DNA of 47,939 nt from a virus. Numbering within the stretch: position 1 is the stretch's first letter; each line of letters begins with the position of its first letter. Below are positions 1-33,186 of the stretch, one piece after another. Both the position numbers and the translations under genes were made by a program. The DNA is taken from IMG/VR virus record IMGVR_UViG_3300020185_002777, positions 1-47,939 of that record. One strand, 5' to 3'. Below the pieces are notes generated by a model. It saw only the letters and a program-made list of their open reading frames with translations, was not told the origin of the DNA and made no database searches.

Positions 1-449
1 ATTAATTTATTCTGTTGTTCAATTTCTTTCTTCATGCCGTCAACATCAACATACCATTCATAGTTAGGATAAGTTATATTAAACCCACCTGCTTCTAGCC
101 ACCACTTTAAACTCGCATCATTTGGTCGGTATACTAATTGTATATCAGCATATGGATAACGTTCAATGATCTCATCAAACATATAAGGCCACTCATGGCT
201 CATTAGTAGTAATGTTCCTGATGTATTTTCAAAAGGTGCTATTAGGTTACTATAGTCTAAACTAGTATCAAACTCCATACCTGTGCCAAAATAACTATCA
301 CAATGCCCACTGAACTCTCCGTGACGGTATATACGATGCGGAGCTCTGTCAGTACTGTTGTATATAGGATCTTGTTTAATACGTTGTGCAATTCCGCTCC
401 AACGAGAGCCAGGAACACCTGTAAAAAATACTAAATCTGTGTTGGTCAT
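1..449 (-). CDS. P-loop/sulfotransferase-like protein, C-terminus cut by window edge
   Basis: The first 149 residues of a minus-strand gene are visible; the 3' end lies outside the window. The protein opens with a hydrophobic beta strand followed by a glycine-rich loop, VFFTGVPGSRWSG (residues 7-19), placed as in the P-loop/PAPS-binding loop of sulfotransferase-like proteins. I infer a nucleotide- or PAPS-binding fold but cannot see the rest of the domain. The ATG at 449 is preceded by AAAGAAC. A perfect TATAAATA late-promoter core lies about 80 nt upstream, so expression may be late. The protein could equally be a phage-specific hypothetical protein whose loop only resembles a P-loop. Confidence 0.6.
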   Translation of the reverse strand, partial: MTNTDLVFFTGVPGSRWSGIAQRIKQDPIYNSTDRAPHRIYRHGEFSGHCDSYFGTGMEFDTSLDYSNLIAPFENTSGTLLLMSHEWPYMFDEIIERYPYADIQLVYRPNDASLKWWLEAGGFNITYPNYEWYVDVDGMKKEIEQQNKL

Positions 450-604: not shown

Positions 605-2692
605 TTAAGTTTCATCTTCTGACAGTTTCCCATCAAAGTCTGTAATATTACATCTTAGTTGATGTTCAACCCAATCAAAACTCATGTCTTCTCTGACACA
701 TTCAATTGTGTTGACTTGTTTTATATCCTCTGCGCCCCTTAAACTTGCGTGTTTAAATTTTTGCGATATTTTAAATGTTAATTCTCCATCAGAGTCGACT
801 CGCATATTAACTGTCGCCCAGTATGGATTAGCAGTATACGGGCCGTACATATTATTGTCCGAATCTTGATCATGTGTTATTTTAATTTCATATGGTCCAT
901 AGACTTGATATAATGCCCAAGCATACGGCAAGTGTTCATTGGCAAGACTGGCACTTAATTGCTCCTGTGAACTGTCGCCCGAAAAATAGTCAAAACGCTG
1001 TCCAAATTGTTGTGGAATATAATCAACAGCTTTGGCGTCTGTTAGTGTTTTGAATTCGAATAGATTATTAATTCCTTCCTGATGTTGGGCATTAATAATA
1101 ATACCATCGCTATGTGTTTTACACAGTAGCAACCAGATGTTAACAAATTTCAATCTTATAAATCTATGTAAAATTGTGTTTACATACCCGTGAGTAAACC
1201 ATTGACTCAAAAATGTATTATCGTAAACTTCCTCTTTCCAGGCAATTTTATATTTGTCCCAGTTAACATGTATATCACTAAACGGACTCATATTACAAGT
1301 CGCTCCTGGACTAATTGCGTATACCCAATTTCTAATATTATACATAACATGTAAACTGTGTAATACTTCGCTAGGTCCTTCAGTTGGGAAGCCAATAACC
1401 CAATTGATATGATTAAACAATCCAGCTTCTTTGCCATCTCTAAGATTGTTTTCAATCTCCCAAACCTTTATCAACTTCTTCATGTCTACTAATACTTTTT
1501 CACTACCGCTTTCAACTCCAAAACTTAATCCCAAGCATCCACTCTTTTTAATCATTTTGAAAAGATCAGCATCCATACGTCCGTCACACCTAGCATAACT
1601 GTTCCACGTAATATCCAATCCGTCTTCTACAATTTCGTGTATTAGATTTTTAAATTCAGTATAAGCGCCATTGGCTAAACTATCCACAAACCAAAAATGT
1701 CTTGTTCCGTATCTATTAATTTGATGTTTCATTTCTTCAATAACACGATTACTTTTTCTGTAACGATATTTCCAAAAATGTGTTTCAGCACAAAACGTAC
1801 ACTTTGCGACACAGCCGCGACTGGTTTCAATACTTACGCCATTTGAGTAATCATATAAGTTTAAATCATAATCACTGTAATCAGGAAATGGCAACTCGTT
1901 TAAGTCTAGCTTTCCTCGAAATCCACCAAATGTTACCATATTATCAGATGGGGACAATAAATGTCTATTTTCTAATAGAGTAAGTAGTTCCTGTTCGCCC
2001 TCTCCTTCAATACGATAGTCAATTAAATTTTTATCGAATCCCAGTATATCAAATGTATTGTGTTCAAAATCAGTATTAAATGCTTGTGGTCCGCCAACTA
2101 CTACTGTGACACTTGGTTCGAGTCTTTTTAGTCGTTCTATCATATACATACTGGCCATAATGTTACTAGTGTATAACGTAAACCCAGCAATTGAATTATT
2201 ATCAGCGATTATTTTATCTACTGCTTCATCTAGCAATGACTGTAGTGCAGGTAATGTTTTTTCTTCCCACGCTGGGCTAGACCATACCCAATAATGTTGT
2301 CCATGCCACCAATTATCGATACCAGGCTGTTCATAAAAATTAGTATCTAATAAATGTTGATGACATTGTATATTAACATCGTGTACATCGACTTTATAAC
2401 CGTATTTGCGTAATAATCCAGTTAATCTTGCTAAGTTATAAGGAGGAAATAATACTCCCCAAGCTGGTGCCACAACAAAGCTAATACCATCACTATCGTT
2501 ATGGTTTAATATTTGGTGCGTTTCACTATAATAATTATACCCACGTGGATGTGTATAGGTATGCTCATTTAATTTTGGTTGTAATTTTCCAAGATGACTA
2601 TCCGCATGATTGAGCTTTTCTTCAATCATACGCTTAATTACTTGGTCTCTATCCTCGTTAAAGAACGGATTTTCTGATGGTTCATCACTCAT
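605..2692 (-). CDS. B12-binding-type radical SAM enzyme, copy 1
   Basis: This is a 695-aa radical SAM protein. Residues about 68-240 look like the Rossmann-type B12-binding domain of this superfamily, with VVVGGPQAF at 197-205 and EGEGEQELL at 229-237. The radical SAM core follows with Cys294, Cys298 and Cys301 (CxxxCxxC in SRGCVAKCTFCAET), the ligands of the SAM-binding 4Fe-4S cluster. A His is present in VDVHDVN (101-107), near where a lower cobalamin ligand can occur, but the full DxHxxG motif is absent. The C-terminal ~200 residues are unrecognised. Enzymes of this class do methylation, methylthiolation or ring chemistry; the substrate here is unknown. The start has AGGAAT upstream. It is a clear paralogue of the protein at 3826-5910 and last in the cluster. 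Confidence 0.9.
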   Translation of the reverse strand: MSDEPSENPFFNEDRDQVIKRMIEEKLNHADSHLGKLQPKLNEHTYTHPRGYNYYSETHQILNHNDSDGISFVVAPAWGVLFPPYNLARLTGLLRKYGYKVDVHDVNIQCHQHLLDTNFYEQPGIDNWWHGQHYWVWSSPAWEEKTLPALQSLLDEAVDKIIADNNSIAGFTLYTSNIMASMYMIERLKRLEPSVTVVVGGPQAFNTDFEHNTFDILGFDKNLIDYRIEGEGEQELLTLLENRHLLSPSDNMVTFGGFRGKLDLNELPFPDYSDYDLNLYDYSNGVSIETSRGCVAKCTFCAETHFWKYRYRKSNRVIEEMKHQINRYGTRHFWFVDSLANGAYTEFKNLIHEIVEDGLDITWNSYARCDGRMDADLFKMIKKSGCLGLSFGVESGSEKVLVDMKKLIKVWEIENNLRDGKEAGLFNHINWVIGFPTEGPSEVLHSLHVMYNIRNWVYAISPGATCNMSPFSDIHVNWDKYKIAWKEEVYDNTFLSQWFTHGYVNTILHRFIRLKFVNIWLLLCKTHSDGIIINAQHQEGINNLFEFKTLTDAKAVDYIPQQFGQRFDYFSGDSSQEQLSASLANEHLPYAWALYQVYGPYEIKITHDQDSDNNMYGPYTANPYWATVNMRVDSDGELTFKISQKFKHASLRGAEDIKQVNTIECVREDMSFDWVEHQLRCNITDFDGKLSEDET

Positions 2693-2701
2693 AAATTATT
2701 C

Positions 2702-3826
2702 CTAATTAACCAAGTCTACTGCAGAAATAGTTAAACTATTTTTGTTAGATAGGTCGTCAGATATATTGCTATAACAATGTTCACGTAACCAATCTTGATC
2801 TATGCTTCCAATGGCTATTGGTGATATAATATGTTCATCACTTGGAAAATTGTAACTATCTACCCAGGGCTTAATATAATTTTTAGTTAAAAGACTTTGA
2901 TATGGTCGTACTTCAAATCCACCTTTAGTAGTATTGAAACTGTTACATACATCCCATTCACGTGGATCGTCGTTATTGTACCATGCGGTTTCATAATCTT
3001 TCCCCAATATGTTTTTTAAATCATATACATTGTATGCATCATCACTTGAGTACATAGTTAAATCCTGTGAACGCATATCTGAAAAATTAAAATCAATACG
3101 CAGTGTGTCAGTACATCCATCTTGACCTTTTGAATTCCAATCCAGTGCTGGTAAAAACATACTAGTAGATGATTGCATTTCTAAAAATTGTTTCATAACA
3201 GTCCATGTATTTTTACTGAGAATGCCATGGTCTTCGATTCGATGTACATAGGCATTAATAGTGTGCAAATCATCTTCAATAGTCATATATTTAGAAAACA
3301 AATCATGATTATCAAAAACATTTGCTAATGTCGGATCTAAATATTTAATATAATACCAAGCATCTGTCTGGTTTAGGTTTGCCATTTTATATTTTATTTC
3401 ACGCTTCTGATCATCGCTTAAATTTAGTGTATCAGTTGTTTTTGTTAAGTGTAATGTAGTAAAACATCGATGTATACGATTACAATCTTCATTTTTACTA
3501 TTCATATTAATATACCCGCCCTGCCAATTAAATCCAGAACTTTTAATCGCATCAATAGAGGTATTTACTTTGTTAACAAAGTCTTGTCGAATATCAATAG
3601 TGTCAGTCCAACGTTTTTCTACATCAATATTAAACATGTTCCAGTATTGTTTTTCATTTGGAGTGTCATATATAAAATATCGTTGTCCGACTGGCTTATC
3701 TCTTCTAACACCCAGCAGTTTTTGGTTACGCTTGAATACAAATTTCCAAAACTCTACAAAATCATTATCTCTTAATTGTATTTCTCCGTCAACACCATTT
3801 GAAAGACTGAATAGTACTTTACTCAT
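2702..3826 (-). CDS. unknown protein between the two B12 radical SAM genes
   Basis: This 374-aa protein has no motif I recognise. It is rich in Trp, Tyr, Asp and Asn, has no signal peptide or membrane segment, and carries scattered Cys and His (EDCNRIHRCF near residue 113) without a clear metal-site pattern. Its ATG overlaps the stop of the upstream B12 radical SAM gene by one base (TAATG), and its own stop is 9 bases before the downstream paralogue. Translation of the three genes is therefore probably coupled. The position suggests a partner, substrate carrier or second enzyme for the radical SAM pair, which is inference only. Confidence 0.85.
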   Translation of the reverse strand: MSKVLFSLSNGVDGEIQLRDNDFVEFWKFVFKRNQKLLGVRRDKPVGQRYFIYDTPNEKQYWNMFNIDVEKRWTDTIDIRQDFVNKVNTSIDAIKSSGFNWQGGYINMNSKNEDCNRIHRCFTTLHLTKTTDTLNLSDDQKREIKYKMANLNQTDAWYYIKYLDPTLANVFDNHDLFSKYMTIEDDLHTINAYVHRIEDHGILSKNTWTVMKQFLEMQSSTSMFLPALDWNSKGQDGCTDTLRIDFNFSDMRSQDLTMYSSDDAYNVYDLKNILGKDYETAWYNNDDPREWDVCNSFNTTKGGFEVRPYQSLLTKNYIKPWVDSYNFPSDEHIISPIAIGSIDQDWLREHCYSNISDDLSNKNSLTISAVDLVN

Positions 3827-5910
3827 TATAACTGCTCCAGACTGATATTTACACTATCAAATTGGTCAATGTTTCCAGTAAATGTATACGTGTTACTAGG
3901 GAAAGACATGTCTTCTCTTTTTACTTCGATATTAGCAATATCATTATCGTCAGTAAGTGTTCTATGTTCAAAATAATGCGTAATAGTTATAGTCGATTCA
4001 CCATTGTCTGATACAGTTGCTTTACAATTTCCATAATATGGTGCTGTTACAAATGTCCCAAATTCTTCAAAATCATAATCTGGGTTAATGTCTACTTCGA
4101 ATTCAAAACCACCCATAGTCTTCCACATCAACCAAATATACGGAAGGTACTCATTTGCTAAGTCAGCACTAAATTTTTCCTGTACACTGTCTCCAGTCCA
4201 ATAGTCGAAGTTATGTTTCTCTTGTTCTATCCGTTCAACAAATTTTCCAGGAGTATTCCATTTAATGTTATAACTATTTTCTAAACTGGGTCTATACTGT
4301 GTATTAATAACTGTTCCATCAGCTTGTGTTATACTCATGTTTAGCCATATATTTGTTAGCTTTAATCTAATGTAACGGTGTACCATAGTATTTTCATAAT
4401 TGTCTGTATACCATTTACCCAAGAAGTTCATATCACCTGGACCTTCTTTCCATGTAATTTTATATTTTCGCCATTGTAATTGCATATCACTAAATGGTGC
4501 GTCACCACATGTATATCCTGGACTAATTGCGTACATATCTTTTCTAACATTGTATAACAATTCTAAACTATGTAAAAACTCTTCCTTGCCTTCAGTTGGA
4601 AATCCAACTATCCAGTTACAATGATTTGTCATTCCAGCAATACGTCCATCTCGAAGGTTGTTTTCAATTTCCCATATTTTTACTTTTTTCTGCATATCAT
4701 CAAGAACTTTTTGGCTGCCGCTTTCAACACCAAAACTAAGAACAGTACATCCACTTTGGTGTATTTTTTTAAACAAATCTAAATCCATACGACCATCATT
4801 TCTGGCGTAGCTGTTCCAACGAATATCTAAACCTTCGTCAATTATTGCATGTACTAGATTTTTAAATTCAGTAAATGCTCCATTAGCTAAACTATCTACA
4901 AACCAGAATCGTCTGATCCCATACTTACTGATCTGGTATTTCATTTCTTCAATAACACGATTTGCTTTTTGATATCTAAATTTCCAAAAATGGGTTTCAG
5001 CACAAAAGCTACACTTAGCTACACATCCACGTGAAGTTTCAATACTTGCGCCGTCCGGGTGTTCATATAAACTTAGATCAAAATCATCGTAGTCTGGAAA
5101 TGGTAAACTGTCTAAATCAAGTCTACTTTTGAATCCACCCATAACATAAGGTTCATCACGTACTGGAAAATCACGTAAATTTTCTAATAGCGTAAGTAGT
5201 TCCTGTTCGCCTTCTCCTTGAATAACAAAGTCAATCTGAGATATATCAAAATTAAATTCATCACGCATTTTAGTTAAAAACCAACTATTGAATGCTTCAG
5301 GTCCGCCAACAGCAATACGAGCGTCTGGCCTTCGTTTAGCTACTTGATTAATCATATACATTGAGGCCATAATACTACTTTGGTATACACTAAATCCAAT
5401 TACATCAACATTAGAATTTACTATCTTATCCACATGATTATCTAATACACTGACAATTGTAGGATGTACATCAGTAGTGTATTGTGGGTCATCCCATGAG
5501 AAAAAATAGATACTGTTCCACCAGTCTTTACTGCCCTGGGCTTTAACATGATGGTAACATTCGATATTTGTATCAAATACGTCTACTCCGTACCCATAAT
5601 GTCTCAACAAGCCAGTTAATCGTGCTGTACTATAAGGTGGAAACATTACTCCCCAACTGGGAGGAGTTACAAGTGCGACCCGTATACCTACACTTTTACG
5701 TGGATTTAGTTCACTCCAGTATGCGTATGTTTTGCGATGTTCTGGGTGCTGTATATAATATTGTTCGTTGAAATACTCTACAAATTTAGGATCTTGGACA
5801 TCCATTGTATCTTTGCCCAAATGACTATTATCATGTCGGATCATAGTTTTAATGACTTGATCTCTGTCACCACTATCAAACGGATTTATGTTGTTGTCGT
5901 CGGTAGCCAT
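3826..5910 (-). CDS. B12-binding-type radical SAM enzyme, copy 2
   Basis: This 694-aa paralogue of the 605-2692 product aligns along its whole length. The B12-binding-type domain is at about residues 77-242 (AVGGPEAF at 200-207, QGEGEQELL at 231-239). The radical SAM cysteines are Cys296, Cys300 and Cys303 (SRGCVAKCSFCAET), and the same unrecognised C-terminal domain follows. Where copy 1 has VDVHDVN, this copy has VDVFDTN and so lacks that His; if cobalamin binds, it would be without this ligand. Its start overlaps the end of the upstream radical SAM gene by 25 nt, with GAGAGG upstream. The two copies may act on related substrates or at successive steps. Confidence 0.9.
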   Translation of the reverse strand: MATDDNNINPFDSGDRDQVIKTMIRHDNSHLGKDTMDVQDPKFVEYFNEQYYIQHPEHRKTYAYWSELNPRKSVGIRVALVTPPSWGVMFPPYSTARLTGLLRHYGYGVDVFDTNIECYHHVKAQGSKDWWNSIYFFSWDDPQYTTDVHPTIVSVLDNHVDKIVNSNVDVIGFSVYQSSIMASMYMINQVAKRRPDARIAVGGPEAFNSWFLTKMRDEFNFDISQIDFVIQGEGEQELLTLLENLRDFPVRDEPYVMGGFKSRLDLDSLPFPDYDDFDLSLYEHPDGASIETSRGCVAKCSFCAETHFWKFRYQKANRVIEEMKYQISKYGIRRFWFVDSLANGAFTEFKNLVHAIIDEGLDIRWNSYARNDGRMDLDLFKKIHQSGCTVLSFGVESGSQKVLDDMQKKVKIWEIENNLRDGRIAGMTNHCNWIVGFPTEGKEEFLHSLELLYNVRKDMYAISPGYTCGDAPFSDMQLQWRKYKITWKEGPGDMNFLGKWYTDNYENTMVHRYIRLKLTNIWLNMSITQADGTVINTQYRPSLENSYNIKWNTPGKFVERIEQEKHNFDYWTGDSVQEKFSADLANEYLPYIWLMWKTMGGFEFEVDINPDYDFEEFGTFVTAPYYGNCKATVSDNGESTITITHYFEHRTLTDDNDIANIEVKREDMSFPSNTYTFTGNIDQFDSVNISLEQL

Positions 5911-7151
5911 TCAGAACAAAGCCTCTCTAATTCAGGGTGAACTAATCCAATATCTTGATTTCTAATTTGATCATACATTTGTGTTCGTTTAGCTAAACGT
6001 ATTCTATTTTTAGCAATGTCTTCTGAATCAAAATCTAATCTCAACTTTGATATAATATGGTCTAGTCTAGATACATTATGTAAATGAGTAGGAACATATT
6101 TGTGCATTGCTTCTTCTAATTCATTTGCGATGTTTAATCGCATATCCTTAGGTAATAGATCAAACCTCTGATCTTCAGGAAAGTTAACAACATTAAAGAT
6201 TAAGTTATGTTGTGCGCCGTTTTCGTGCCAATATTTGATTATGTTTACTAAATCAAAAATATTATAAATTTGTGCGGTAGCTAGTAAGTTGAGAGTGATG
6301 TTATCTTGTTGTGCATATTGGTTATATGCCACATCTAATTCATTCCAATCTGCCCCATATCTGATATAATCATTAGTATAACCAATTCCACACATTGAAA
6401 ATTGTATAAACACACTATCAAATTTACTCAACATTCTTATTACTTTGCCTTTAGTGCGACTACCATTGGTTGTAATATCAAGCGCAATGTGTGTATTGCC
6501 TGAGTCTATACACCACTTCAGTAATTTAATTACACCAGGCATAAACAGTGGCTCGCCGCCGGCAAGTTTTAATACATCCATATGTTTAACGGATTCTTTA
6601 ACACTTTCAAAAGCAATAGGGTCATCAAGCCATTCACCAACATCAATTGGTTTATCCCATGATACTTCTTGTGTTTCTGGGTGTTCTCTGTTTTCTTGGT
6701 CGATAGTTGTACTAACTGCTCCCCAACACATCCTACAGCCAAAGTTACACATTCTTCCAGGACGTAGATCACCCCAAGTTGGAAACTGTACATCAATATC
6801 TAATTCAAAATCATTACCCAATGTACGCAAGTAACGTTCATTTTGACTTACTCTGTCACTGCCGCCGCCACCATCTCTATCTTGCCCATAGCATATATGA
6901 CAGCGACTTTCCTTAATGCCTTTAAGCATATTCGTTCTAATACGTTTATATTCTTCGCCTCTAAAAATATCCAACAGGCTTTTACCACTGACATCATTTT
7001 CAATAGGGTCTCCCCAGTCAGCAATACAACATAGATTAGCAGCACCTGTAGTCGTCACATAGCTGTGATTGAACGGCATAATACAGAATGCAGGGTTATT
7101 TTTTACCTGCTTTTGCAAGTTTAACTCTAGATCTTCGGGCGTTTTTTTCAT
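5886..7151 (-). CDS. radical SAM protein with N-terminal twitch/SPASM-like module
   Basis: This 421-aa protein has a cysteine-rich N-terminal module (Cys23, Cys41, Cys42, Cys84, Cys87) before the radical SAM core at Cys135, Cys139 and Cys142 (GRMCNFGCRMCWG), with AGGEPL serving as the GGE SAM-contact motif. An auxiliary iron-sulfur module in front of the core is the architecture of the 'twitch domain-containing radical SAM' proteins known from T4-like marine phages. Such modules usually help bind a peptide or other substrate; none is identifiable here. The start has AAGGAAAC upstream. It overlaps its upstream neighbour by 56 nt and shares its Cys arrangement, so the two are likely duplicated. 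Confidence 0.9.
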   Translation of the reverse strand: MKKTPEDLELNLQKQVKNNPAFCIMPFNHSYVTTTGAANLCCIADWGDPIENDVSGKSLLDIFRGEEYKRIRTNMLKGIKESRCHICYGQDRDGGGGSDRVSQNERYLRTLGNDFELDIDVQFPTWGDLRPGRMCNFGCRMCWGAVSTTIDQENREHPETQEVSWDKPIDVGEWLDDPIAFESVKESVKHMDVLKLAGGEPLFMPGVIKLLKWCIDSGNTHIALDITTNGSRTKGKVIRMLSKFDSVFIQFSMCGIGYTNDYIRYGADWNELDVAYNQYAQQDNITLNLLATAQIYNIFDLVNIIKYWHENGAQHNLIFNVVNFPEDQRFDLLPKDMRLNIANELEEAMHKYVPTHLHNVSRLDHIISKLRLDFDSEDIAKNRIRLAKRTQMYDQIRNQDIGLVHPELERLCSEWLPTTTT

Positions 7152-8751
7152 TTGTTTCCTTTAGCAATTCTACAATTTCTGGCATAGTTTTTCGCCAGTC
7201 TTCTTTTCGTTGTTTATCATACTTATCGGCTTCTATAAACCACTTTTTCCATATTTCAGGATTATGTTCTTTCGCAAACATATGATCTAATACTGCCTGC
7301 AATCTCTGACATATAGTATGTGTAGCGGCTATTTCATTAGGTTTGCCATATTTTTGATTTAAAACATCTATAAACTGTTTATATCGATGTTGTACAAAAA
7401 TCTTAGCATCTTCTGGCAGGTTTTGAATATTGAGATGTTCTGGCCCATACAAGTTATGGATAACTATTCGCTTATCAATTTTCTTCCAATCTTGTTCCAG
7501 CATCCACCATATCATATCTAATACGTGAAGTACATTCATAGTACTTAATGTCAGTGTAAAGGCGGCTGAAAGGTTGTTAAAATTTTCTTCCTTTTCGATA
7601 CGGTTTAAATTTTTCTCAACTGTTTTCCATCTACCTGGATTTCGTATGTATTCAAAGTGTTCATATATTCCATCAATACTCATGCCTAACCCAACACTTT
7701 TAAAGTGTTTCCATTGTTGGAACACTGAACCTGGTATACCTGCCATGTTTGTATTATAATCCAAATGTATATTCTTAGCTAACCCTAGGTCAATACATAT
7801 TTGTAATAATTTACGATGTTTGATATTAATAGTTGGCTCGCCACCAGTAAAGTAAAATCTATCAATGTTGGGAAGTTCTGTTATAATCTTAGACCACATT
7901 GTATTTTCTTCTGTTTCGTGCCAATCAAATACGCCCGGTACAGTGAATGTTCCGTCTTCTTTCTTTATAATTTCTACATTACCATGACCCCTGACATCGA
8001 ACTTATGATCATCGTGTGTATTATACCAATCCTCATACCATAAATTACTATCAGTAGGGCCACAGCTACGACATTTAAGATTGCATTTGTTACCAAATCT
8101 TAAATCATAATATGTAATAGGAAAGTCTTCATCTTTAATACTACCATCTTCTTGTGTTAATTCTAATGCCTGACTGTATATTTTAGGATATTTAAGTTTA
8201 CTCCAGTCTCGCTTTGATCCGATTCCATTGTTTTCTTCGTTAGTGCATAGTTTACAAATTTCTGGATCTATACCCTGCAACATTTGTTTGCGTATATCTT
8301 TCCATCCAGGAGCATTTCGCATAGTACTAAGATCAGCATCAGTTGTAATAACATTACCAGAATCATCAAATAAACTTCCATATGGATATTCTGCGTGATC
8401 ATCAATCATTTGACAACACATACGGAGACTACCATCAGCATTTGTGCTTACATGATTCCACGGCAGTGAACAAAAAACACTATACTCAGGAGTATTTTTT
8501 GATAGCCAGGTGGTGTACTTCTTTTGGAGTTGGTCTGGTGTCATCTTTAGATTTTTAACAAGCCATTTGTTAGTTATTTCATCATTGTATTTGAGATTTA
8601 CTACCCAAAGTGCAAACAGCACCTCCGGATCTAAATCGTGTTCTGCAACAATGCGCCGAACCTCAACTGGGCAATCTGCATCTTGAACCATTGAAATTCG
8701 TTCTTCATGTGACCTAAATACGTCTAGGTCAAATCTATTATTTGAGTCCAT
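7096..8751 (-). CDS. radical SAM protein with N-terminal twitch/SPASM-like module, long form
   Basis: This 551-aa protein has an extra ~85-residue N-terminal helical region. It is followed by the same cysteine module as the 5886-7151 product (Cys94, Cys112, Cys113, Cys166, Cys169; the 17-residue gap between the first two matches exactly). The radical SAM core has Cys223, Cys227 and Cys230 (GNKCNLKCRSCG) and TGGEPT further on. The C-terminal ~100 residues are basic and helical. It sits in the same coupled string of genes, overlapping its upstream neighbour by 14 nt. It is probably an iron-sulfur oxidoreductase or modification enzyme of unknown substrate. Confidence 0.9.
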   Translation of the reverse strand: MDSNNRFDLDVFRSHEERISMVQDADCPVEVRRIVAEHDLDPEVLFALWVVNLKYNDEITNKWLVKNLKMTPDQLQKKYTTWLSKNTPEYSVFCSLPWNHVSTNADGSLRMCCQMIDDHAEYPYGSLFDDSGNVITTDADLSTMRNAPGWKDIRKQMLQGIDPEICKLCTNEENNGIGSKRDWSKLKYPKIYSQALELTQEDGSIKDEDFPITYYDLRFGNKCNLKCRSCGPTDSNLWYEDWYNTHDDHKFDVRGHGNVEIIKKEDGTFTVPGVFDWHETEENTMWSKIITELPNIDRFYFTGGEPTINIKHRKLLQICIDLGLAKNIHLDYNTNMAGIPGSVFQQWKHFKSVGLGMSIDGIYEHFEYIRNPGRWKTVEKNLNRIEKEENFNNLSAAFTLTLSTMNVLHVLDMIWWMLEQDWKKIDKRIVIHNLYGPEHLNIQNLPEDAKIFVQHRYKQFIDVLNQKYGKPNEIAATHTICQRLQAVLDHMFAKEHNPEIWKKWFIEADKYDKQRKEDWRKTMPEIVELLKETNEKNARRSRVKLAKAGKK

Positions 8752-9355
8752 TATTTTTATCTATCCATTTCATATGTTCAACATCGAACTTCTGTTTATT
8801 TATATTACTGAATTGTGCTATACTGCACAACTGTGAGGAGATAGTTGACAAAAAATTCTGACATCCAATATCAATAACATTAAAGTTGGTAAAGCGTTGC
8901 TTATACTCGTGTAGCATATTATATGTTTCTTCTAATGCTGATGCATGATTTTTAATAAAAGTTTTCTTGTCAGTTGTTATATTAACAGTGTGTAATTTTT
9001 TCCATGTTATCTCTGCCCAATATTGGTAATGACTAGGTAAGCCTAATGCAATAACTGTCATGTCATTATACCAGTAATCAGCTAAAATGTCAACATCTAC
9101 TAAGTGATCTTTGTATATATTAATAGCCTTGTCTGTTTCACCAGTATATCCACTGTCTATGCCATCAGGAAATTTTTCAGGATTAGCATTATAAACGTCT
9201 ACATACGTCCGACGACATGCAAGGTTCCAGTGATTTGGTCCTACTTCTGTTGGTGTTAATGTATTTATATCATCAACTGTGCGACTAATTAGGCCGGTCA
9301 GAAATTCCCCACCAGTACCAGCCGAGTATAACACAAGTATATCATCTTTGTTCAT
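8738..9355 (-). CDS. possible P-loop protein within the radical SAM operon
   Basis: This 205-aa soluble protein opens with ILVLYSAGTGGEFLTGLI, a beta strand followed by a glycine-rich loop and helix. The arrangement resembles nucleotide-binding or sulfotransferase-like proteins, and the gene at 1-449 begins the same way. No second catalytic motif is evident, so the assignment is weak. The start overlaps the upstream stop by four bases (ATGA) and has TAGGAATC upstream, indicating translational coupling with the radical SAM gene before it. Confidence 0.8.
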   Translation of the reverse strand: MNKDDILVLYSAGTGGEFLTGLISRTVDDINTLTPTEVGPNHWNLACRRTYVDVYNANPEKFPDGIDSGYTGETDKAINIYKDHLVDVDILADYWYNDMTVIALGLPSHYQYWAEITWKKLHTVNITTDKKTFIKNHASALEETYNMLHEYKQRFTNFNVIDIGCQNFLSTISSQLCSIAQFSNINKQKFDVEHMKWIDKNNGLK

Positions 9356-10785
9356 GATTGATTCCTAAAGAATTCTATTTCGTTATCGCTATATTTAGTT
9401 AGCTCTGAGGCGTTAGAAATATCTCTGATAGGCACTAAACTTATTTCTCCTTTAGGTCTGCCATTTGCACCAAGTGTATGCCACTGTGGTATTTCAAGTA
9501 ACCTATCACGTAACAACTGCGCCCTGTCTAAAAATCCACTGGGTACCATTAGTTTTATTTCCAACCAATGATCATCGTCTTTTTGATCATGTTGATCCAT
9601 AATTATTTTACAATTTTCAATAAATCTATCTTCGTTACCTCTATATAAATCCATACTAGCAAAGTGGGCACTCATGTTAACACTGTTAATATATTGACTA
9701 GCTTCACGCCAGAACTTGGTACTACGAGAACCGTTAGTTGTTACAAGTATCCAATGTCCTTTGCTTTTTAAATACTTTAATATTTCCATAAATTTTGGAT
9801 GCATAGTAGGCTCGCCGCCACCGAAGTTCCATCTGATAGGCTGACCGTTACTCCAATTATCAGAAAGCATATCAATTGTGTTAATAACTTTTTCAAAGTC
9901 ATGAAACTGTTCTGTATTACTATGCACTGCAGGCCAGCAATAGTCACAACTATAGTTACAACGACGACCTAGATCCCATAATATTTGGTAGGGTATTGAA
10001 AAGTTCATTTCCATTGCGACACCTTCTTGTATTGGTGCGGTTGTATAATTTTGCGCTCTTACAGTACCAGCGTGACCGTTTGCTGTTACGTCTAACATCT
10101 TGAGATGTTCATCTGTTTTAGCTTTACTTAATATCACATCTGCGCCACACCCACAACTGTTAAACGGACAAGTTACATATTCTTCAGGTATGTCTATACC
10201 TTCAGTAACATTTCCTAATAGCCCCCAAGTGGATGATATATCCTCTAGTGTACTGGTCCATTTCCAATTGTCTGGATCCTTACTCCATTCTTTGTACCAA
10301 AAATTATTACTATCGCCAATTTTCTTTACAAAAAATTCATCCTCAAGTCGTGCAATCTCTGCCATTAATTTAATTTGCTGTTCACTATTTTCCCAATTAG
10401 TTTTGGGCATTGGCCATCCAGCTTCAGTATTTTTATTAAGCCAATCTTTACGCTCTTCGCTGCCATCGGCGCCAATTATACTTTCTCTGTACTTTTTCCA
10501 TAGTTCAGTTACGTCCTCAGGAAATGCCTTGTCTGTAAATTCAGTTACTCTTTGCGTATGTATTTTACTATATTGATTTGCGCTTGCGCAGTTGCCGTTC
10601 CATATATTGCCGTCATAATCAATATACAATCCTCTTATACCAGCACTACACTTCCAGCCTTTCCATTTGTTTTGTTCTCTAGCAATAGTTTCGTCCACAC
10701 TCATGCGAATAAACTTGCCTGTACTATCATACATGCGAAGTTGCTTGTTATCTAGAGGAATGACTGGATTATTTATTATTGCCAT
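9352..10785 (-). CDS. radical SAM protein with SPASM-like module placed before the core
   Basis: This 477-aa protein has its radical SAM core in the C-terminal half: Cys276, Cys280 and Cys283 (GRRCNYSCDYCW) with GGGEPT at 322-327. Before it lies a cysteine module with Cys46, Cys66, Cys206, Cys211 and Cys213. The segments around these (WKGWKCSAGI..DYDGN..GNC and CPFNSCGCGADVILSK) match those at the C-terminal end of the 12461-13462 radical SAM protein, with the same Cys spacings. The auxiliary domain therefore appears permuted to the front and carries a ~115-residue insertion. This is the first gene after the promoter at 10812-10840, with AAGGAAAC upstream of its ATG. The substrate is unknown. 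Confidence 0.9.
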   Translation of the reverse strand: MAIINNPVIPLDNKQLRMYDSTGKFIRMSVDETIAREQNKWKGWKCSAGIRGLYIDYDGNIWNGNCASANQYSKIHTQRVTEFTDKAFPEDVTELWKKYRESIIGADGSEERKDWLNKNTEAGWPMPKTNWENSEQQIKLMAEIARLEDEFFVKKIGDSNNFWYKEWSKDPDNWKWTSTLEDISSTWGLLGNVTEGIDIPEEYVTCPFNSCGCGADVILSKAKTDEHLKMLDVTANGHAGTVRAQNYTTAPIQEGVAMEMNFSIPYQILWDLGRRCNYSCDYCWPAVHSNTEQFHDFEKVINTIDMLSDNWSNGQPIRWNFGGGEPTMHPKFMEILKYLKSKGHWILVTTNGSRSTKFWREASQYINSVNMSAHFASMDLYRGNEDRFIENCKIIMDQHDQKDDDHWLEIKLMVPSGFLDRAQLLRDRLLEIPQWHTLGANGRPKGEISLVPIRDISNASELTKYSDNEIEFFRNQS

Positions 10786-10811
10786 TATTGTTGGTTTCCT
10801 TATTTGATTCT

Positions 10812-10840
10812 ATTGTACTCTATATTTGGGTAGATGTCAA
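10812..10840 (-). promoter_or_regulatory. sigma70-type promoter for the radical SAM operon
   Basis: On the minus strand TTGACA (10840-10835) is followed after exactly 17 bases by TACAAT (10817-10812). It lies in the 77-nt gap upstream of the 9352-10785 gene. A host-type promoter points to expression before the gp55-dependent late genes on the same strand. Confidence 0.75.
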
Positions 10841-10862
10841 TTAATAAAATAATTATTAGGTG

Positions 10863-11810
10863 CTACCTGTTTGACATATGATCAATAATTTGGCTTGCCA
10901 AAACATTGTGTGCATGGTCATCTAGATGTCCAAGTCTGCCTTTGGGCCAGATATATTTGTCATTATAATATTTGTATGAATACCATTGCTTAAACGGAAC
11001 AGGTCTTTCATCAATAACCCATTTAACTCTTGTGGGGTCGTTACGATAAAATTCAAACAAGCGTGATTTTTCCATCTGCTGTCCATATGTTAAGAAAAAG
11101 TCAGTATGTTCTTTTTCAGTAAACTTGTCAGAAAAATCGTGATAAGAGTCTTTTGGTTGGTTGTATTTTAACTGCATTTCCTTATAACCTGCTAATTTTT
11201 CAATGATAGAATCGTTTTCAATATCATAATGAAAATTTACTGCATGAGCACCACGAATTTTGATAATTTCGTTAGCGCATCTATATACTTCCAAAAAATC
11301 TAATATCTTAATTTCTTCTTGAGCATAGTATTCATTATGTGCATTGGCCACTGCCATTATGCTTGGGTTTTTTGAATTTGATTTTTTTAAAAAATAATGC
11401 TGTTTGTTAATATCTTGTCGATGCTTTTCTGTCAAGTCACTAAATTTATCAGCTAATACTTTTAGTGTACTGGAATATTGGGATTCCATTACTGTAATGG
11501 TATGAATTGATGAATAGTGAAAGTTTGAATACGGGTCTGTATTTCTAGGTAATACCCACAACTTGCGGTCCAAGTAAGTCCAAGATAACAGGCATATGTC
11601 TCCAGGCTCTACAAATTCAATTACATCTTGTAATATTTGTCGATTACTGTTACCACATCTTGCTGCAATCTTAAACTCTTTTTGATATAGTTTAGCTACA
11701 TGGTTTCCAAAATTTAATTCCATATTGGTTGGATGATGTATAATTCCACTGCCTGCTATCTCAGCGCCAAAGGCGTGACTGCATCCAAAATTTACAACTC
11801 TATTATACAT
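10863..11810 (-). CDS. SGNH/GDSL-type hydrolase-like protein
   Basis: This 315-aa protein begins with FGCSHAFG (residues 8-15), a variant of block I (GDSxxxG) of SGNH hydrolases that keeps the nucleophile Ser11 and Gly15. GNSN (53-56) fits the oxyanion Gly/Asn blocks. Near the C-terminus LDDHAHN (296-302) offers the Asp/His pair of block V. Known members of the fold remove acyl or acetyl groups from sugars, lipids or peptidoglycan. Beside methyltransferase, radical SAM and glycosyltransferase genes, an esterase or acetyltransferase acting on a glycan is plausible. It lies one base after the methyltransferase gene and has a weak ribosome binding site. Confidence 0.75.
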   Translation of the reverse strand: MYNRVVNFGCSHAFGAEIAGSGIIHHPTNMELNFGNHVAKLYQKEFKIAARCGNSNRQILQDVIEFVEPGDICLLSWTYLDRKLWVLPRNTDPYSNFHYSSIHTITVMESQYSSTLKVLADKFSDLTEKHRQDINKQHYFLKKSNSKNPSIMAVANAHNEYYAQEEIKILDFLEVYRCANEIIKIRGAHAVNFHYDIENDSIIEKLAGYKEMQLKYNQPKDSYHDFSDKFTEKEHTDFFLTYGQQMEKSRLFEFYRNDPTRVKWVIDERPVPFKQWYSYKYYNDKYIWPKGRLGHLDDHAHNVLASQIIDHMSNR

Positions 11811-11811
11811 A

Positions 11812-12429
11812 CTAATTTCTTTCGATTATTACCCTAACCACACCAAAAAACGGATCACGTTGTACTGTATTCTGATACACTGTGTCTACATCTTGGTCAA
11901 TTTTTCTGTTATTTATCTCCGCTAGGTACCAGTATAATTGGTCATCTTTAAGACGGTTGTATATTTCCTGTCGTGTGTCTTCTTTCTGTCCATGCCAAAA
12001 ATATTCCACATTGCCATATTGTTGCCAAGTTTCAATATTTTTCCACTCGTCAATAGGCTGATTTTCATTAAAACTAATCCACATTTTGTTGCACTTGGAT
12101 AATGCACGTTCTAGATTTTCATGTATGTTTCCAAAATGTAAACTGTTTACTGCGACCCCATAATTAAATTTCGCTAGGTTAGCAAACTCTTCATCATCCA
12201 CATATGCAAATGTGTCCGCTTCCAGTGTTCGGTCTACGCCATGTATATTGGGATAAAATAGCTTTAGGTTGTTTTCACCACAGCCGATATCTAGAATAGT
12301 ATCATCACAACTTTCAATAAAGTTATACAAACTTGTATTCATAAAGTATGGCATGTAATCTCCACGCCGACTAGTAAATTGTAGTTGTCTAATATAAAAC
12401 TGCCAAGTTTCATTATAATGTTTGATCAT
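11812..12429 (-). CDS. class I SAM-dependent methyltransferase
   Basis: The product is 205 aa from ATG 12429. Motif I is ILDIGCGENN (residues 45-54), the glycine-rich SAM-binding loop of Rossmann-fold methyltransferases. GVDRT (64-68) would be the acidic strand-2 position. The rest is short for the family, so it is probably a minimal catalytic domain. An upstream GTG at 12453 keeps the frame open, but it has no ribosome binding site, whereas AGAAGAAA precedes the ATG. It sits between the radical SAM gene at 12461-13462 and the SGNH-like gene. The target is unknown. Confidence 0.8.
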   Translation of the reverse strand: MIKHYNETWQFYIRQLQFTSRRGDYMPYFMNTSLYNFIESCDDTILDIGCGENNLKLFYPNIHGVDRTLEADTFAYVDDEEFANLAKFNYGVAVNSLHFGNIHENLERALSKCNKMWISFNENQPIDEWKNIETWQQYGNVEYFWHGQKEDTRQEIYNRLKDDQLYWYLAEINNRKIDQDVDTVYQNTVQRDPFFGVVRVIIERN

Positions 12430-12460
12430 TGTTTTTCTTCTTTTACATGACACTGATGAA

Positions 12461-13462
12461 TTAGTCTTCTACCACTTCATATCTATTTTTAGGCAATATT
12501 TTTTTACTCATAATATCAAAGTTACAATGGCACATACTTTTTGTACACATTACAGGCTTAGTTGGCCATTTGATATTCTTTGGTAACTTCATATTACCAA
12601 GAGTTCCGCCCACTCTACACCAGCCAATCATTACACTGCCATCAAAGTCTACTACAATCTGTTCTATACCACTCCAACACAACCAACCTTTCCAGTTATT
12701 TGTCTTATCATTAATAAAACGATGTGCACTACTATTTTCACTTAAATTATTAACATCATCATGCATTTGCATACTGCCACGATATATAGGCCAAGACTTA
12801 GTGTGTTCTATATTACTTGCTAGATCATGCCATTGTCTATCAATGTATTCTATTTGTGCATCAGTATAAGTATAAAGTGTTTCGCCAAAATCTATAATTA
12901 ACGGTTGCAAAGCAAGGCTAATATTAGGAGTACTAATAACAGTTTCTGCAAGGTCTTGGCAGACTGGCCATATTTCCGGATCATAATGCATCATTATGTT
13001 TACGTGTGTACGACATTGTTCACTCATAATCTTAACTACGTTAAGAAAATGCTCTGCATCACCCTCTTCTGGGTGAAAGCTTAAACAAACATGATCGAAT
13101 TTCTCTTTGTTTTTTTCCCACCACCGTAAGGTACGACTTCCATTACTGATAAATCCAATGTCGTGTCCAATGGATTTAATATATTCAGCGCACTTAATAA
13201 AATCTTTCCACAAGGTTACTTCTCCTCCAGTAAATTCGAAATATACTTTACGAGATGAATAATGTTCTACTGTAGCATCAATAAATTCCTGAATAATTTC
13301 AAAATCATTCCATCCAAAACTACCATCATTTAGTATACTAGGACAATATGAACAAGTGAAGTTACACATATTGCCCAAATTCCAATTTACAACTACCCAT
13401 TCTTTGCACTCAGCATGGTGATGGTCTAGTCTATTATAAAAGTCCTGTGGTCCTAAGGGCAT
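12461..13462 (-). CDS. radical SAM protein with C-terminal SPASM-like module
   Basis: This 333-aa protein has the radical SAM core at the N-terminus: Cys33, Cys37 and Cys40 (GNMCNFTCSYCP) and TGGEVT at 78-83. The C-terminal module has Cys262, Cys282, Cys306, Cys311 and Cys313, the usual place for a SPASM-type auxiliary iron-sulfur domain. SPASM enzymes often modify peptides, but also sugars and other small molecules. The start follows the stop of a 59-aa gene directly (TAAATG), with AAGGTG as ribosome binding site, so the two are co-translated. The cysteine pattern of the auxiliary module recurs, in permuted order, in the protein at 9352-10785. Confidence 0.9.
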   Translation of the reverse strand: MPLGPQDFYNRLDHHHAECKEWVVVNWNLGNMCNFTCSYCPSILNDGSFGWNDFEIIQEFIDATVEHYSSRKVYFEFTGGEVTLWKDFIKCAEYIKSIGHDIGFISNGSRTLRWWEKNKEKFDHVCLSFHPEEGDAEHFLNVVKIMSEQCRTHVNIMMHYDPEIWPVCQDLAETVISTPNISLALQPLIIDFGETLYTYTDAQIEYIDRQWHDLASNIEHTKSWPIYRGSMQMHDDVNNLSENSSAHRFINDKTNNWKGWLCWSGIEQIVVDFDGSVMIGWCRVGGTLGNMKLPKNIKWPTKPVMCTKSMCHCNFDIMSKKILPKNRYEVVED

Positions 13463-13642
13463 TTATACACCTTTATCCATTTTATTATTCATTTGTTCTT
13501 CCAAACGTTTTACCGATTGTAATATTTCCCATAGTTTCCAATCCATAGTCTTTGCTAATTCTAGAATTTCAGCATTAAATTCTTTGTTACTTTCTTGAAC
13601 CTCATCTACAGGTGCATCCAAAAGTCTTATTTTTTTAACCAT
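13463..13642 (-). CDS. 59-aa helical protein directly upstream of a radical SAM gene
   Basis: The small ORF starts at ATG 13642 with a strong AGGAGG six bases upstream; its TAA abuts the ATG of the radical SAM/SPASM-like gene. The product starts MVKKIRLLDAPVDEVQ and continues as a charged, probably helical segment with two Trp (KTMDWKLWEILQ, residues 32-43). It has no Cys and no membrane segment. It may be a small structural partner. A peptide substrate of the neighbouring enzyme is a weaker alternative suggested only by position. Coding is well supported by the ribosome binding site and spacing. Confidence 0.7.
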   Translation of the reverse strand: MVKKIRLLDAPVDEVQESNKEFNAEILELAKTMDWKLWEILQSVKRLEEQMNNKMDKGV

Positions 13643-13664: not shown

Positions 13665-14621
13665 TTATCTATCCCAACCGGTTGATTTTTCTGTTGCTAA
13701 TGGATTTGGAACTCTTTTAGGATTAGTATAAACTAATTTAAAAAAGTTTGACATTTCTACAGTTGGATCACATATTTCCATTCCCAACATATCTACTAAT
13801 TTATCACCCACTTCTAATGACGCATCATACAGTAAGTCATTGTCAACTTCAGAATTATCAGACAAAAATTGTGGATATACCGTATCATAAAAATAAGACT
13901 TGAACCAATCATAATCACTAATACTTTCAGTGATAAAGGTTTCATCAAAGTTAACATTGTAACAGCCCAATCTCGCTCCATATATTGCCCATAAACCATT
14001 TTCTATGTCTGCGCCGACATTGCACCAGGTAAGTAACCTATGATAGTTCTTTGGCCAAACTTTAGTTTTAAATTTAGAAGGTTCGATAATTTTACCTTCA
14101 TCTAATGACATCTTAACACCTTCACGGAATCCACTACGAAATGCTTGAAATGGGGATCCACTATTGAATATCATTGAATAAGTATTATTCATTTGTTTAT
14201 AGTCTAAATCCCAACAAAAGTCAAGTTTTTTAGTTTCATTGTCTGCATTCTCATGAGTCTTCATATCTAACACAAGTTGTACAGGCCAACATTTAATACC
14301 ACCATTACCATATACTAATCCATTAGTTAAATTCTTTGCTCCCCAAGATATTACACTTTTACTTAAATCAACATTAGTAGGAAAATCTAATACAAGATCA
14401 AAGAACTTTTTGTCAACAATGTTATCACCATCAATAGTTATAAACCTGTCTGAGTTACTAGCACGGGCGCATGCCTTGTGAGCATTATCAAATCCCTTGA
14501 CCCCATCAATTCGTTTTGCTTGTGGATATTTTTCTAATAAATCTGCGTAATGCTCTTCTTTGTTTGGTTCATCATAACTAAGATAAAATATATCCAAGTC
14601 TTTTATAATAATGGTAGTCAT
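13665..14621 (-). CDS. GT-A-like glycosyltransferase-type protein
   Basis: This 318-aa protein carries FITIDGDNIVD (residues 60-70), whose DGD resembles the DxD metal/nucleotide-sugar motif of GT-A glycosyltransferases. It follows an N-terminal beta-alpha region opening IFYLSYDEPN. This N-terminal pattern occurs in proteins of other T4-like marine phages. It probably transfers a sugar to a glycan, a protein or modified DNA; the acceptor is unknown. Its ATG overlaps the upstream stop by four bases. Confidence 0.7.
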   Translation of the reverse strand: MTTIIIKDLDIFYLSYDEPNKEEHYADLLEKYPQAKRIDGVKGFDNAHKACARASNSDRFITIDGDNIVDKKFFDLVLDFPTNVDLSKSVISWGAKNLTNGLVYGNGGIKCWPVQLVLDMKTHENADNETKKLDFCWDLDYKQMNNTYSMIFNSGSPFQAFRSGFREGVKMSLDEGKIIEPSKFKTKVWPKNYHRLLTWCNVGADIENGLWAIYGARLGCYNVNFDETFITESISDYDWFKSYFYDTVYPQFLSDNSEVDNDLLYDASLEVGDKLVDMLGMEICDPTVEMSNFFKLVYTNPKRVPNPLATEKSTGWDR

Positions 14622-15190
14622 GTCACTCTTTTATCCTCTATTGAATAAGTTTCTAATATTTCTTCAGTTATATACATACTTATATCATTATATTTATGTA
14701 TGTAGTTAATTGTATATTTTTCACCAGAAATTAACTTTTCATAATTTAAATTCAGAATATCAATTATAAAATCTGGTTCATCAAGTAGCGTAATGTAGAA
14801 ATTTTGATTTAACTTAGCAAGCAATGTCGTTTCTACTAACATGTTTTTAGTTAGTTGAAATGAAATTCCACTATCTATAATATCAATCACGATTGTTGGG
14901 TTATCGCGTAGTTCTAATTTTTGTATATTATTTTTTATAGATATACCGCGTTTTTTATCTTTTTTAACAATATAGTAACTTAGAGTATCTTTTTTGTAAA
15001 TGACATGAAAATCATCAATTTTCTGTGTGCCATCTAATAACATACTAATATCAGAAATTTTGAAGTGTGCATATGTAGTATTGCTATCTTTTAGTATAGC
15101 GTTTTCGAATGATTTAATTTCACCATTGTCACCAAAATAAACTATTTTGTAATCATCCGAATCCGTTAAAGTTTTTATACACTCAAACAT
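14618..15190 (-). CDS. unknown protein in the glycosyltransferase operon
   Basis: This 190-aa acidic, beta-rich soluble protein has no motif I recognise, no Cys cluster and no membrane segment. The ATG has GAGGATG upstream. It overlaps the glycosyltransferase-like gene on each side (16 nt and 4 nt), so it is translated with them and may assist them. Confidence 0.8.
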   Translation of the reverse strand: MFECIKTLTDSDDYKIVYFGDNGEIKSFENAILKDSNTTYAHFKISDISMLLDGTQKIDDFHVIYKKDTLSYYIVKKDKKRGISIKNNIQKLELRDNPTIVIDIIDSGISFQLTKNMLVETTLLAKLNQNFYITLLDEPDFIIDILNLNYEKLISGEKYTINYIHKYNDISMYITEEILETYSIEDKRVT

Positions 15191-16032
15191 AATACATCCT
15201 CATATTTTTCAATAATCGTATCTGTAAGCCAATCCTTTTCAGTATAATGGAATGGTAATAATATTTCTTGGTTATTAACAAAAATTTTTAAATCATCTGT
15301 TACATAACTTGGTAGTGTTTTATTCCAAGTAGATGATATACTTTTATTTGGTATATCCTGTATATGGCTTTTCATATGTATAAATTGAGGAACAACAGTG
15401 TTAGTGGCAATAGAACTATTTAATGGGAACAACTTTGCAGCAAGAGAGAATGCAACATCAGCACTTATCCAATCTTGTCCTTCATCTTTCAAAAATACAG
15501 AATAATAATAATCCCAATTTTCCATAATATCTTGTACTAATCTAAAATATTGAAATGATTTTTTAGATTTATTAAAGTAGGTGAAATTACTATATATGTC
15601 AGGTAGTTCACAATTTGTAAACTTTTTACGATAGTAATCACTTGTTACTGGTTTATCTCTAAATGTTCTAGCATTAGAACACAAACATACATCATAATCA
15701 TCTAGAATGTCCCACCAATGGTCAACTGATGCCGTAAATAACTGATCCGAATCAAGTATAATAGTTTGATCGAATGGCGACATATGAACGTACTTCCATT
15801 TATTTTCTATTTTCCATTTCGAAGATACAGCATTATCGGTCCAGGGTATATCAATGATGTAGTCGAATATATCCGCATGCTTTTGTTCTAATTTATCGCT
15901 GGTCCTACCATCAACACATAGGCAAACCGAATTTTCTTGCTGTGTAATTTTTATACTAAGTGCCAATGCATATGCCAATCGCAGATGGTCAACGTCTGAA
16001 TTTTGAGCAATTATAATATAACCTCTACTCAT
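15175..16032 (-). CDS. glycosyltransferase-like protein (GT-A fold, DSD motif)
   Basis: This 285-aa protein starts with a beta strand and helix (GYIIIAQNSDVDHLRLAYAL) and has SPFDQTIILDSDQLF (residues 85-99), where Asp94-Ser-Asp96 is in the DxD position. It resembles nucleotide-sugar transferases of the glycogenin/GT8 type in overall layout. It is a diverged paralogue of the next gene (16029-16889), which carries SPYDETLVIDCDYF at the same place. The ATG has CGGAG upstream and overlaps the upstream stop (ATGA). Acceptor and sugar are unknown. Confidence 0.7.
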   Translation of the reverse strand: MSRGYIIIAQNSDVDHLRLAYALALSIKITQQENSVCLCVDGRTSDKLEQKHADIFDYIIDIPWTDNAVSSKWKIENKWKYVHMSPFDQTIILDSDQLFTASVDHWWDILDDYDVCLCSNARTFRDKPVTSDYYRKKFTNCELPDIYSNFTYFNKSKKSFQYFRLVQDIMENWDYYYSVFLKDEGQDWISADVAFSLAAKLFPLNSSIATNTVVPQFIHMKSHIQDIPNKSISSTWNKTLPSYVTDDLKIFVNNQEILLPFHYTEKDWLTDTIIEKYEDVLCLSV

Positions 16033-16889
16033 AGACTAACTCCGTATTCAAAGAATTTATCTATATTTTTTACAATACTACTCTTGTTCATAATATGCAA
16101 ATCAGTATTTTGAAGCCTAACCATACTAGTATATTTTTTATTCATCGTAGTCAGCATTAAAATATTAGTAGGACTATCAATTCTAAATATTCTGTCAGTG
16201 TCAAAACTATTCATTAGGCAATGTATGGGCAATCTTGGAACGATATCGTCATTCCCATTTGTGATAATATGAAGTGCAATCGAAAACGTATGGTCATTGC
16301 GATACAGTTTTGTATTACACAAATATCTAATATAATACCATTGCCAATTATTTTTTATAATATCTACCATACTGAATAGCATAGAAGTGAATTCACTCTT
16401 TTTAAAATAAAGTAATGTTGCCCAATACATATCAATACTAGTGTTGGATATTTTAGTTACATTAGATAGTTTATTATTACAAATATCAGAGTAGTTTTTA
16501 GTAATCATAAAATCATTTTTACTGCCCCACACACGGTCCAATTCATTTGTCATGACAAAATAATCACAATCAATTACTAGAGTTTCATCATATGGTGATA
16601 AGTCATATACATTGCCTCGGTTAGTATTGATGAATTTGGCGGCGCGTTTGTCCCTATGTGTATCATAGTAGGTACGCATAGTAGAATCAGCGGGAACTGG
16701 TATGGTTATAACTCTATCAAAATATGCATTGACCAATTCTTCATTGCCTGACAATGATTCAACATCGGTAACTAAGCATATTTCATCAAATCCAGACAAG
16801 TTTCTTCTGACATAGCCTGCACTCGCGCATGCTATCTTAATGTAATCAATATACTCATTATTATGAGAAAATATTATTATACCATTCAT
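16029..16889 (-). CDS. glycosyltransferase-like protein (GT-A fold, DCD motif)
   Basis: This 286-aa protein has the layout of its neighbour: an N-terminal beta-alpha unit (GIIIFSHNNEYIDYIKIA) and SPYDETLVIDCDYFV at residues 98-112, with Asp107-Cys-Asp109 as the likely metal/nucleotide-sugar motif. Its ATG shares one base with the stop of the preceding 114-aa gene (TAATG). The pair looks like an old tandem duplication. A role in building a host-surface or virion glycan is inference. Confidence 0.68.
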   Translation of the reverse strand: MNGIIIFSHNNEYIDYIKIACASAGYVRRNLSGFDEICLVTDVESLSGNEELVNAYFDRVITIPVPADSTMRTYYDTHRDKRAAKFINTNRGNVYDLSPYDETLVIDCDYFVMTNELDRVWGSKNDFMITKNYSDICNNKLSNVTKISNTSIDMYWATLLYFKKSEFTSMLFSMVDIIKNNWQWYYIRYLCNTKLYRNDHTFSIALHIITNGNDDIVPRLPIHCLMNSFDTDRIFRIDSPTNILMLTTMNKKYTSMVRLQNTDLHIMNKSSIVKNIDKFFEYGVSL

Positions 16890-17265: not shown

Positions 17266-17294
17266 ATAATATCATAATAAGTTTAAAATGTCAA
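17266..17294 (-). promoter_or_regulatory. sigma70-type promoter for the glycosyltransferase operon
   Basis: On the minus strand TTGACA (17294-17289) is followed after 17 bases by TATTAT (17271-17266), in the 77-nt gap between the last virion gene and the 114-aa gene. It would let the accessory block be transcribed early even though it lies downstream of late genes on the same strand. Confidence 0.7.
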
Positions 17295-33180: not shown

Positions 33181-33186
33181 AAGTAC

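Follow-up and report, generated by a model that had tools for sequence, protein, structure and literature searches.

The window analysed here, the 47,939-bp virus record IMGVR_UViG_3300020185_002777 (positions 1 to 47,939; apparently fragmentary), carries six radical SAM genes in an accessory block that lies directly after a phage tail module, appears to be a single operon, and recurs with conserved gene order in uncultured phage contigs. We think the chances are about even that this block encodes a pathway for tailoring a sugar or glycan. The first-pass annotation had placed six radical SAM genes between positions 605 and 13462, and all six ORFs were found there, all on the minus strand:

605..2692, minus strand: B12-binding-domain radical SAM protein A (695 aa, CVAKCTFC; PF04055 56.1 bits, PF02310 32.0 bits)
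3826..5910, minus strand: B12-binding-domain radical SAM protein B (694 aa, CVAKCSFC; PF04055 60.7 bits, PF02310 34.5 bits)
5886..7151, minus strand: N-terminal-twitch radical SAM protein A (421 aa; NF033640 281.8 bits, cut-off 170)
7096..8751, minus strand: N-terminal-twitch radical SAM protein B (551 aa; NF033640 335.7 bits, cut-off 170)
9352..10785, minus strand: radical SAM protein r7 (477 aa, N-terminal auxiliary Cys module; PF04055 48.5 bits)
12461..13462, minus strand: radical SAM protein r10 (333 aa, C-terminal auxiliary Cys module; PF04055 40.1 bits)

Among 31 window ORFs of at least 80 aa that do not overlap one another, precisely these six contain CxxxCxxC, compared to 0.04 ORFs predicted by shuffling residues. 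Five of the six genes score above the PF04055 cut-off. The gene at 5886 falls below it (21.9 bits) but contains CxxxCxxC and passes NF033640, so that all six belong to the radical SAM superfamily. We checked whether several of them might have other folds and found the folds to be radical SAM. Most of these genes overlap, as had been noted, by 1–56 nt, and the four auxiliary modules originally proposed can be recognised from cysteine patterns in the genes at 5886, 7096, 9352 and 12461.

Interleaved with these enzymes, or next to them, are the following ORFs:

3..449, minus strand: partial 149-aa ORF with an FFTGVPGSRW motif, running off the contig (no Pfam match)
2702..3826, minus strand: g02, a 374-aa protein between the two B12-type enzymes (no Pfam match above cut-off, no PHROG match)
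8738..9355, minus strand: g06, a 205-aa protein with an invariant GxGGE; L072:12330-14573 joins it to twitch enzyme B
10863..11810, minus strand: SGNH-hydrolase-like protein (motif-based; the family recurs near modules)
11812..12453, minus strand: methyltransferase-like protein with motif I DIGCGE (from sequence)
13463..13642, minus strand: 59-aa charged ORF abutting r10

The partial ORF at the contig end is a possible extra accessory gene. The methyltransferase and SGNH hydrolase named in the first-pass annotation stand as motif-level identifications, with no Pfam match for either; a weak relative of the methyltransferase-like protein (L024:15322-16023) matches Methyltransf_23 under its cut-off. 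The P-loop label is not supported for the 8738 protein, where GxGGE is invariant but the Walker A consensus is absent.

Both proposed B12-binding-type domains are seen, one above and the other just under the PF02310 cut-off of 32.1 bits, in paralogues that are ~49–51% identical. In Foldseek, the AlphaFold model built for the 3826 gene product (pLDDT 83.6) matches TsrM (1.8e-16) and OxsB (7e-16), as well as MgmA, AprD4, TokK and CysS. TsrM, OxsB, MgmA and AprD4 have the same overall fold as the window enzymes, a B12-type domain plus a radical-SAM barrel, but identity is 14–18% and the window enzyme has an extra C-terminal region of ~200 aa. As this fold fits a sugar dehydratase and a ring-contracting enzyme no less than methyltransferases, it does not tell which chemistry the enzyme performs. 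The model suggests cobalamin as cofactor of the B12-type enzymes; to our knowledge, AprD4, which has the same fold, does not require it. If cobalamin is used, infection would rely on the host for the vitamin. Two curated identities were rejected for these proteins, namely PhpK P-methyltransferase (123.7 and 119.6 bits, cut-off 600) and the RiPP C-methyltransferase TIGR03975 (110.5 and 115.8 bits, cut-off 281.85; no conserved small ORF). Among cultured phage records, the B12-type enzyme matches only the radical-SAM core in Streptomyces phage SF3. The g02 protein has five distinct relatives, mostly encoded immediately downstream of a B12-type enzyme. Separately, a 470-aa domain without Pfam match exists alone (L113:2352-3707) or as the N-terminal half of a B12-type protein (L017:11544-15047), and several relatives fuse this domain to the B12-type enzyme.

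The twitch proteins both belong by score to the NCBIfam family N_Twi_rSAM (NF033640), and both carry an N-terminal auxiliary module of the form C-x17-CC...CxxC. Their only matches in cultured phage records are in Vibrio phages K566 and K567, at about 21–22% identity. The portion of the K566 record examined holds four genes annotated as radical SAM and no match to window r10 or the B12-type enzyme.

For r10, no match was found among cultured phage records. Its auxiliary cysteines (Cys 262, 282, 306, 311 and 313) and those of r7 (Cys 46, 66, 206, 211 and 213) follow a common C-x19-C...C-x4-C-x-C pattern, C-terminal in r10 and N-terminal in r7, and the N-terminal stretch of r7 aligns with the C-terminus of r10 at 39% identity over 38 aa (E 9e-8). 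With the same cysteine pattern and this match at opposite termini, the two look like paralogues related by domain permutation.

Upstream of r10, the block continues through glycosyltransferase-like genes to the tail module:

13665..14621, minus strand: GT11, a divergent GT-A-type glycosyltransferase-like protein (AlphaFold pLDDT 88; Foldseek)
14618..15190, minus strand: g12, a 190-aa operon protein (by synteny)
15175..16032, minus strand: g13, a GT8-like protein with a DxD-type DSDQ motif (glycogenin E 0.65, not significant)
16029..16889, minus strand: g14, a paralogous GT8-like protein with a DxD-type DCDY motif
16889..17233, minus strand: g15, 114 aa, first gene of the operon (by synteny and upstream promoter)
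17266..17294, minus strand: putative operon promoter TTGACA-N17-TATTAT, upstream of g15
17311..18363, minus strand: g16, tail-module protein, homologue of PA5oct gp360 (HMM E 1.2e-41), which the PA5oct record gives as a virion protein by MS
18374..19048, minus strand: g17, counterpart by homology of PA5oct gp357 (in the PA5oct record, also a virion protein by MS)
19083..19092, minus strand: GATAAATACT, a candidate late promoter for the tail genes (also at 33144-33153 and 42750-42759)

Three glycosyltransferase-like genes had been reported in this region. The one at 13665 is supported by a weak GT-A fold match, and those at 15175 and 16029 only by their motifs and the non-significant glycogenin match. 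Best Foldseek matches for GT11 are GT-A glycosyltransferases and sugar nucleotidyltransferases, all weak (E from 4e-4, TM about 0.3), and the top match is SunS, a peptide glycosyltransferase. Both Asp residues of the GT11 DxD-type motif are invariant, and one relative matches Glyco_tranf_2_3 under cut-off.

The window derives from a large contractile-tailed phage, with genes for a baseplate wedge, a late sigma factor and SbcC/SbcD-like proteins. Homologues of gp353-gp354-gp355-gp357-gp360 of Pseudomonas phage PA5oct are present in identical order; no counterpart of the fibre and structural genes gp358/gp359 was found in the window tail module. In PA5oct, gp360 is the last gene of the tail module, whereas in the window the accessory block starts directly after its counterpart, g16. 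The radical-SAM block extends a tail module of the PA5oct type at its end. Elsewhere in the window, 44742-45344 shows weak SDR/FabG-like similarity and adjoins the SbcC/SbcD-like genes; a relative of its product (L015:1475-2029, in contig G001) adjoins a radical-SAM gene.

Upstream of g15, a sigma-70 match of at least 10/12 was found in 12 of 20 non-identical loci, compared to 5% of shuffles, and no other block gene has such a match in front of it in more than one locus. Given this conserved promoter and the downstream genes, which mostly overlap or abut, the block appears to be one operon of ~17 kb, extending from about 17300 to below 605. A second sigma-70-like promoter in the window, TTGACA-N17-TACAAT (10812..10840, minus strand), lies in the 77-nt gap before r7 and is not conserved in relatives. 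The window has three exact copies of GATAAATACT, all of which closely precede virion or tail genes, but their number is no excess over chance when one mismatch is allowed. The form TATAAATA was rejected as a late promoter (3 matches, 12.7 expected). Two divergent intergenic regions, 33144-33215 and 42750-42827, share a long motif, GTATTTATCA..GTATAAACTACGTATATTTG, followed in both by near-consensus TTGACA/TATAAT promoters, and are likely paired late and early promoters. From such sequence motifs we infer the timing of the operon and its probable expression separate from the virion genes.

To assess conservation, we scanned with the B12-type alignment and obtained 37 viral loci, leaving 32 B12-type genes after removal of near-identical sequences. 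An N-twitch radical-SAM gene lies within four ORFs of the B12-type gene in 27 of the 32 loci, with two or more in 23, and r7/r10 relatives lie within eight ORFs in 21. Hence these genes do not occur independently and at random. The order GT11, r10, (methyltransferase, SGNH), r7, (g06), Twi, Twi, B12, (g02) recurs in uncultured phage contigs, being kept in the window, L024, L027, L031, L033, L060, L064 and other loci, and GT11 and g13/g14 are syntenic with the radical-SAM genes in many contigs. In four relatives GT11 and r10 form one ORF, and in one g06 is fused to a twitch enzyme. Ahead of the GT11 domain, the fusions L080:1405-4230 and L082:8672-10936 carry N-terminal HVWYLD-type motif repeats. 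Distance correlations (Mantel rho), in which the twitch paralogue was picked by best score, are 0.90 for r7-B12, 0.68 for twitch A-B, 0.61 for r10-r7 and 0.53 for r10-GT11, compared to 0.18 (r10), −0.01 (twitch B) and 0.24 (B12) against the tail gene g17. For r10-twitch B, rho is only 0.09, so that twitch-B distances track neither r10 nor g17. These comparisons suggest a module that travels between phages partly in one piece. The original suggestion of a whole pathway gains support from the conservation of gene order and promoter, from the fusions and from the correlated divergence. Counts of radical-SAM matches in relative contigs reach 18 (G007 and G021), with 16 in the 46 kb of G001, 14 in G012 and 12 each in G009 and G014. 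Two scans of bacterial contigs (B12-type alignment and twitch B), both with narrow patterns, returned no homologues.

Other genes accompany the module. Of 18 relative contigs, 13 encode a NodU/CmcH-type carbamoyltransferase, in many cases about 4–12 kb from the module; none lies within the window. Carbamoyltransferases occur in 144 phage records and are widespread in marine phages in general, which makes their presence unspecific and weakens their value as a module marker. Near the module in G003 are genes for a UDP-sugar dehydrogenase, an APS kinase and a GT7-type transferase. Pelagibacter phage HTVC008M has a carbamoyltransferase/UDP-glucose dehydrogenase/glycosyltransferase cassette, but without annotated radical SAM genes. 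Fe-S genes were found in relatives (IscU in 4 of 19, A-type carriers in 7 of 19), in agreement with the Fe-S assembly gene noted by Nishimura and others (PMC5332604), and no flavodoxin partner was found in 19 contigs. Two further cargo genes were observed: a flavin-dependent tryptophan halogenase (L017:2170-3393; PF04820, 4.8e-93), encoded in a phage island of G003 at a distance of a few kb from the module, and a tripartite tricarboxylate transporter gene, TctA (270 bits), at L024:16153-17682 (G001) and also L008:7630-9066. The latter is unusual phage cargo on radical-SAM-module contigs and is adjoined by a gene for a signal-peptide-like protein.

The weak structural matches of GT11, the g13/g14 motifs, the fusions, the carbamoyltransferases, the G003 genes and the HTVC008M cassette together point to a sugar or glycan product. 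In such a pathway, the products of an operon that follows the tail genes and has its own host-type promoter would make or edit the sugar or glycan. GT-A/GT8-like proteins would handle the sugar acceptor or attachment; r10, r7, the twitch pair and the B12-type enzymes would then carry out hydrogen-abstraction chemistry on it, such as dehydration, epimerisation or C-methylation, with cobalamin as the presumed B12-type cofactor; and the methyltransferase-like and SGNH-like proteins would trim or cap it. The target would most likely be an envelope glycan of the infected cell, with receptor masking or exclusion of rival phages as the outcome, and less likely a virion glycan. We infer the substrate, the order of steps and the purpose. 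The GT11-r10 fusions, synteny, GT11-r10 rho, the promoter conserved only before g15, the Fe-S genes of relatives and the tail-end position, which recalls the host recognition clusters of pelagimyophages, favour a sugar. So does the closeness in fold between the B12-type enzyme and AprD4, whose substrate is an aminoglycoside sugar. Against it are the weak GT11 match with SunS at the top, the untracked twitch-B distances and the unspecific carbamoyltransferases; moreover, peptides or phosphinates are frequent substrates of SPASM/twitch enzymes and of the enzymes behind the nearest NCBIfam models (PhpK and RiPP C-methyltransferases).

Since carbamoyltransferases are frequent in marine phages and twitch/SPASM enzymes often modify peptides, the main rival is protein modification, that is, radical-SAM cross-linking, epimerisation or C-methylation plus glycosylation of a phage structural protein, likeliest the neighbouring tail fibre or baseplate proteins. 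Many contigs have the block directly after virion tail genes, SPASM/twitch and MgmA-like B12 enzymes commonly target proteins, and the top structural matches of GT11 include peptide and protein glycosyltransferases. Yet the sigma-70-type promoter of the operon differs from the motif that may serve the tail genes as late promoter, and the radical-SAM genes, correlated among themselves, show rho values of only −0.01 to 0.24 with g17; we regard this explanation as doubtful. A RiPP-like product, in which radical-SAM maturases act on a small phage-encoded precursor, seems improbable: RiPP C-methyltransferases are the second-best model for the B12-type enzymes, but no small ORF is conserved near the radical-SAM genes across loci (that at 13463-13642 is present only in the window and the near-identical L059) and overlapping genes leave scant room for one. 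Phage deazaguanine pathways include radical-SAM enzymes, and r7 has weak QueE-like PHROG similarity, which could indicate hypermodification of phage DNA bases or tRNA. However, MiaB/RimO and QueE identities score far under curated cut-offs, no DNA-modification partner gene was recognised in the operon, and the linkage is with glycosyltransferase-like and sugar genes, making this very unlikely. Least credible of all is counter-defence or exclusion through viperin-like nucleotide analogues, for the pVip-like cores of r7 and r10 (67.5 and 51.9 bits, PADLOC) are generic only, the prokaryotic viperin scores are 60.1 and 50.8 bits against a cut-off of 180, and both proteins have extra auxiliary Cys modules.

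The first-pass remark that single radical SAM genes are known in T4-like marine phages understates the literature, where sets of 8–12 in aquatic phages are already mentioned in passing. A T4-like environmental genome, TARA_ERS488813_N000010, has 12 radical-SAM genes plus the Fe-S assembly gene, reported as a count without operon, order or fusion (PMC5332604). Aeromonas phage 332-Vera (Chimallinviridae) has eight inside a structural cluster, termed highly unusual (PMC12390700); both phages are compared here by description. Pelagimyophages, a different phage group, have host recognition clusters adjacent to tail fibres, with LPS-type glycosyltransferases and radical-SAM cassettes (PMC7029224), whereas the window set is a recurrent ordered module. 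Radical-SAM genes are also mentioned in viromes (PMC7150976). The open papers searched contain, as far as we saw, no account of the fusions or of the conserved operon and its promoter.

Radical-SAM enzymes perform powerful chemistry, come at a high cost and are sensitive to oxygen. Six such genes in an operon, recurrent across uncultured phages and with up to 18 per contig, imply an important infection product. We tentatively entertain the possibility of a mobile operon, widespread in uncultured large phages, that encodes a new radical-SAM pathway, in which glycosyltransferase-radical-SAM fusion enzymes and B12-type enzymes work in sequence, and makes a modified glycan unknown from cells, remodelling the host surface or virion. 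The natural fusions and recurrent order provide a concrete enzyme set that could reveal what phage tail-adjacent islands make.
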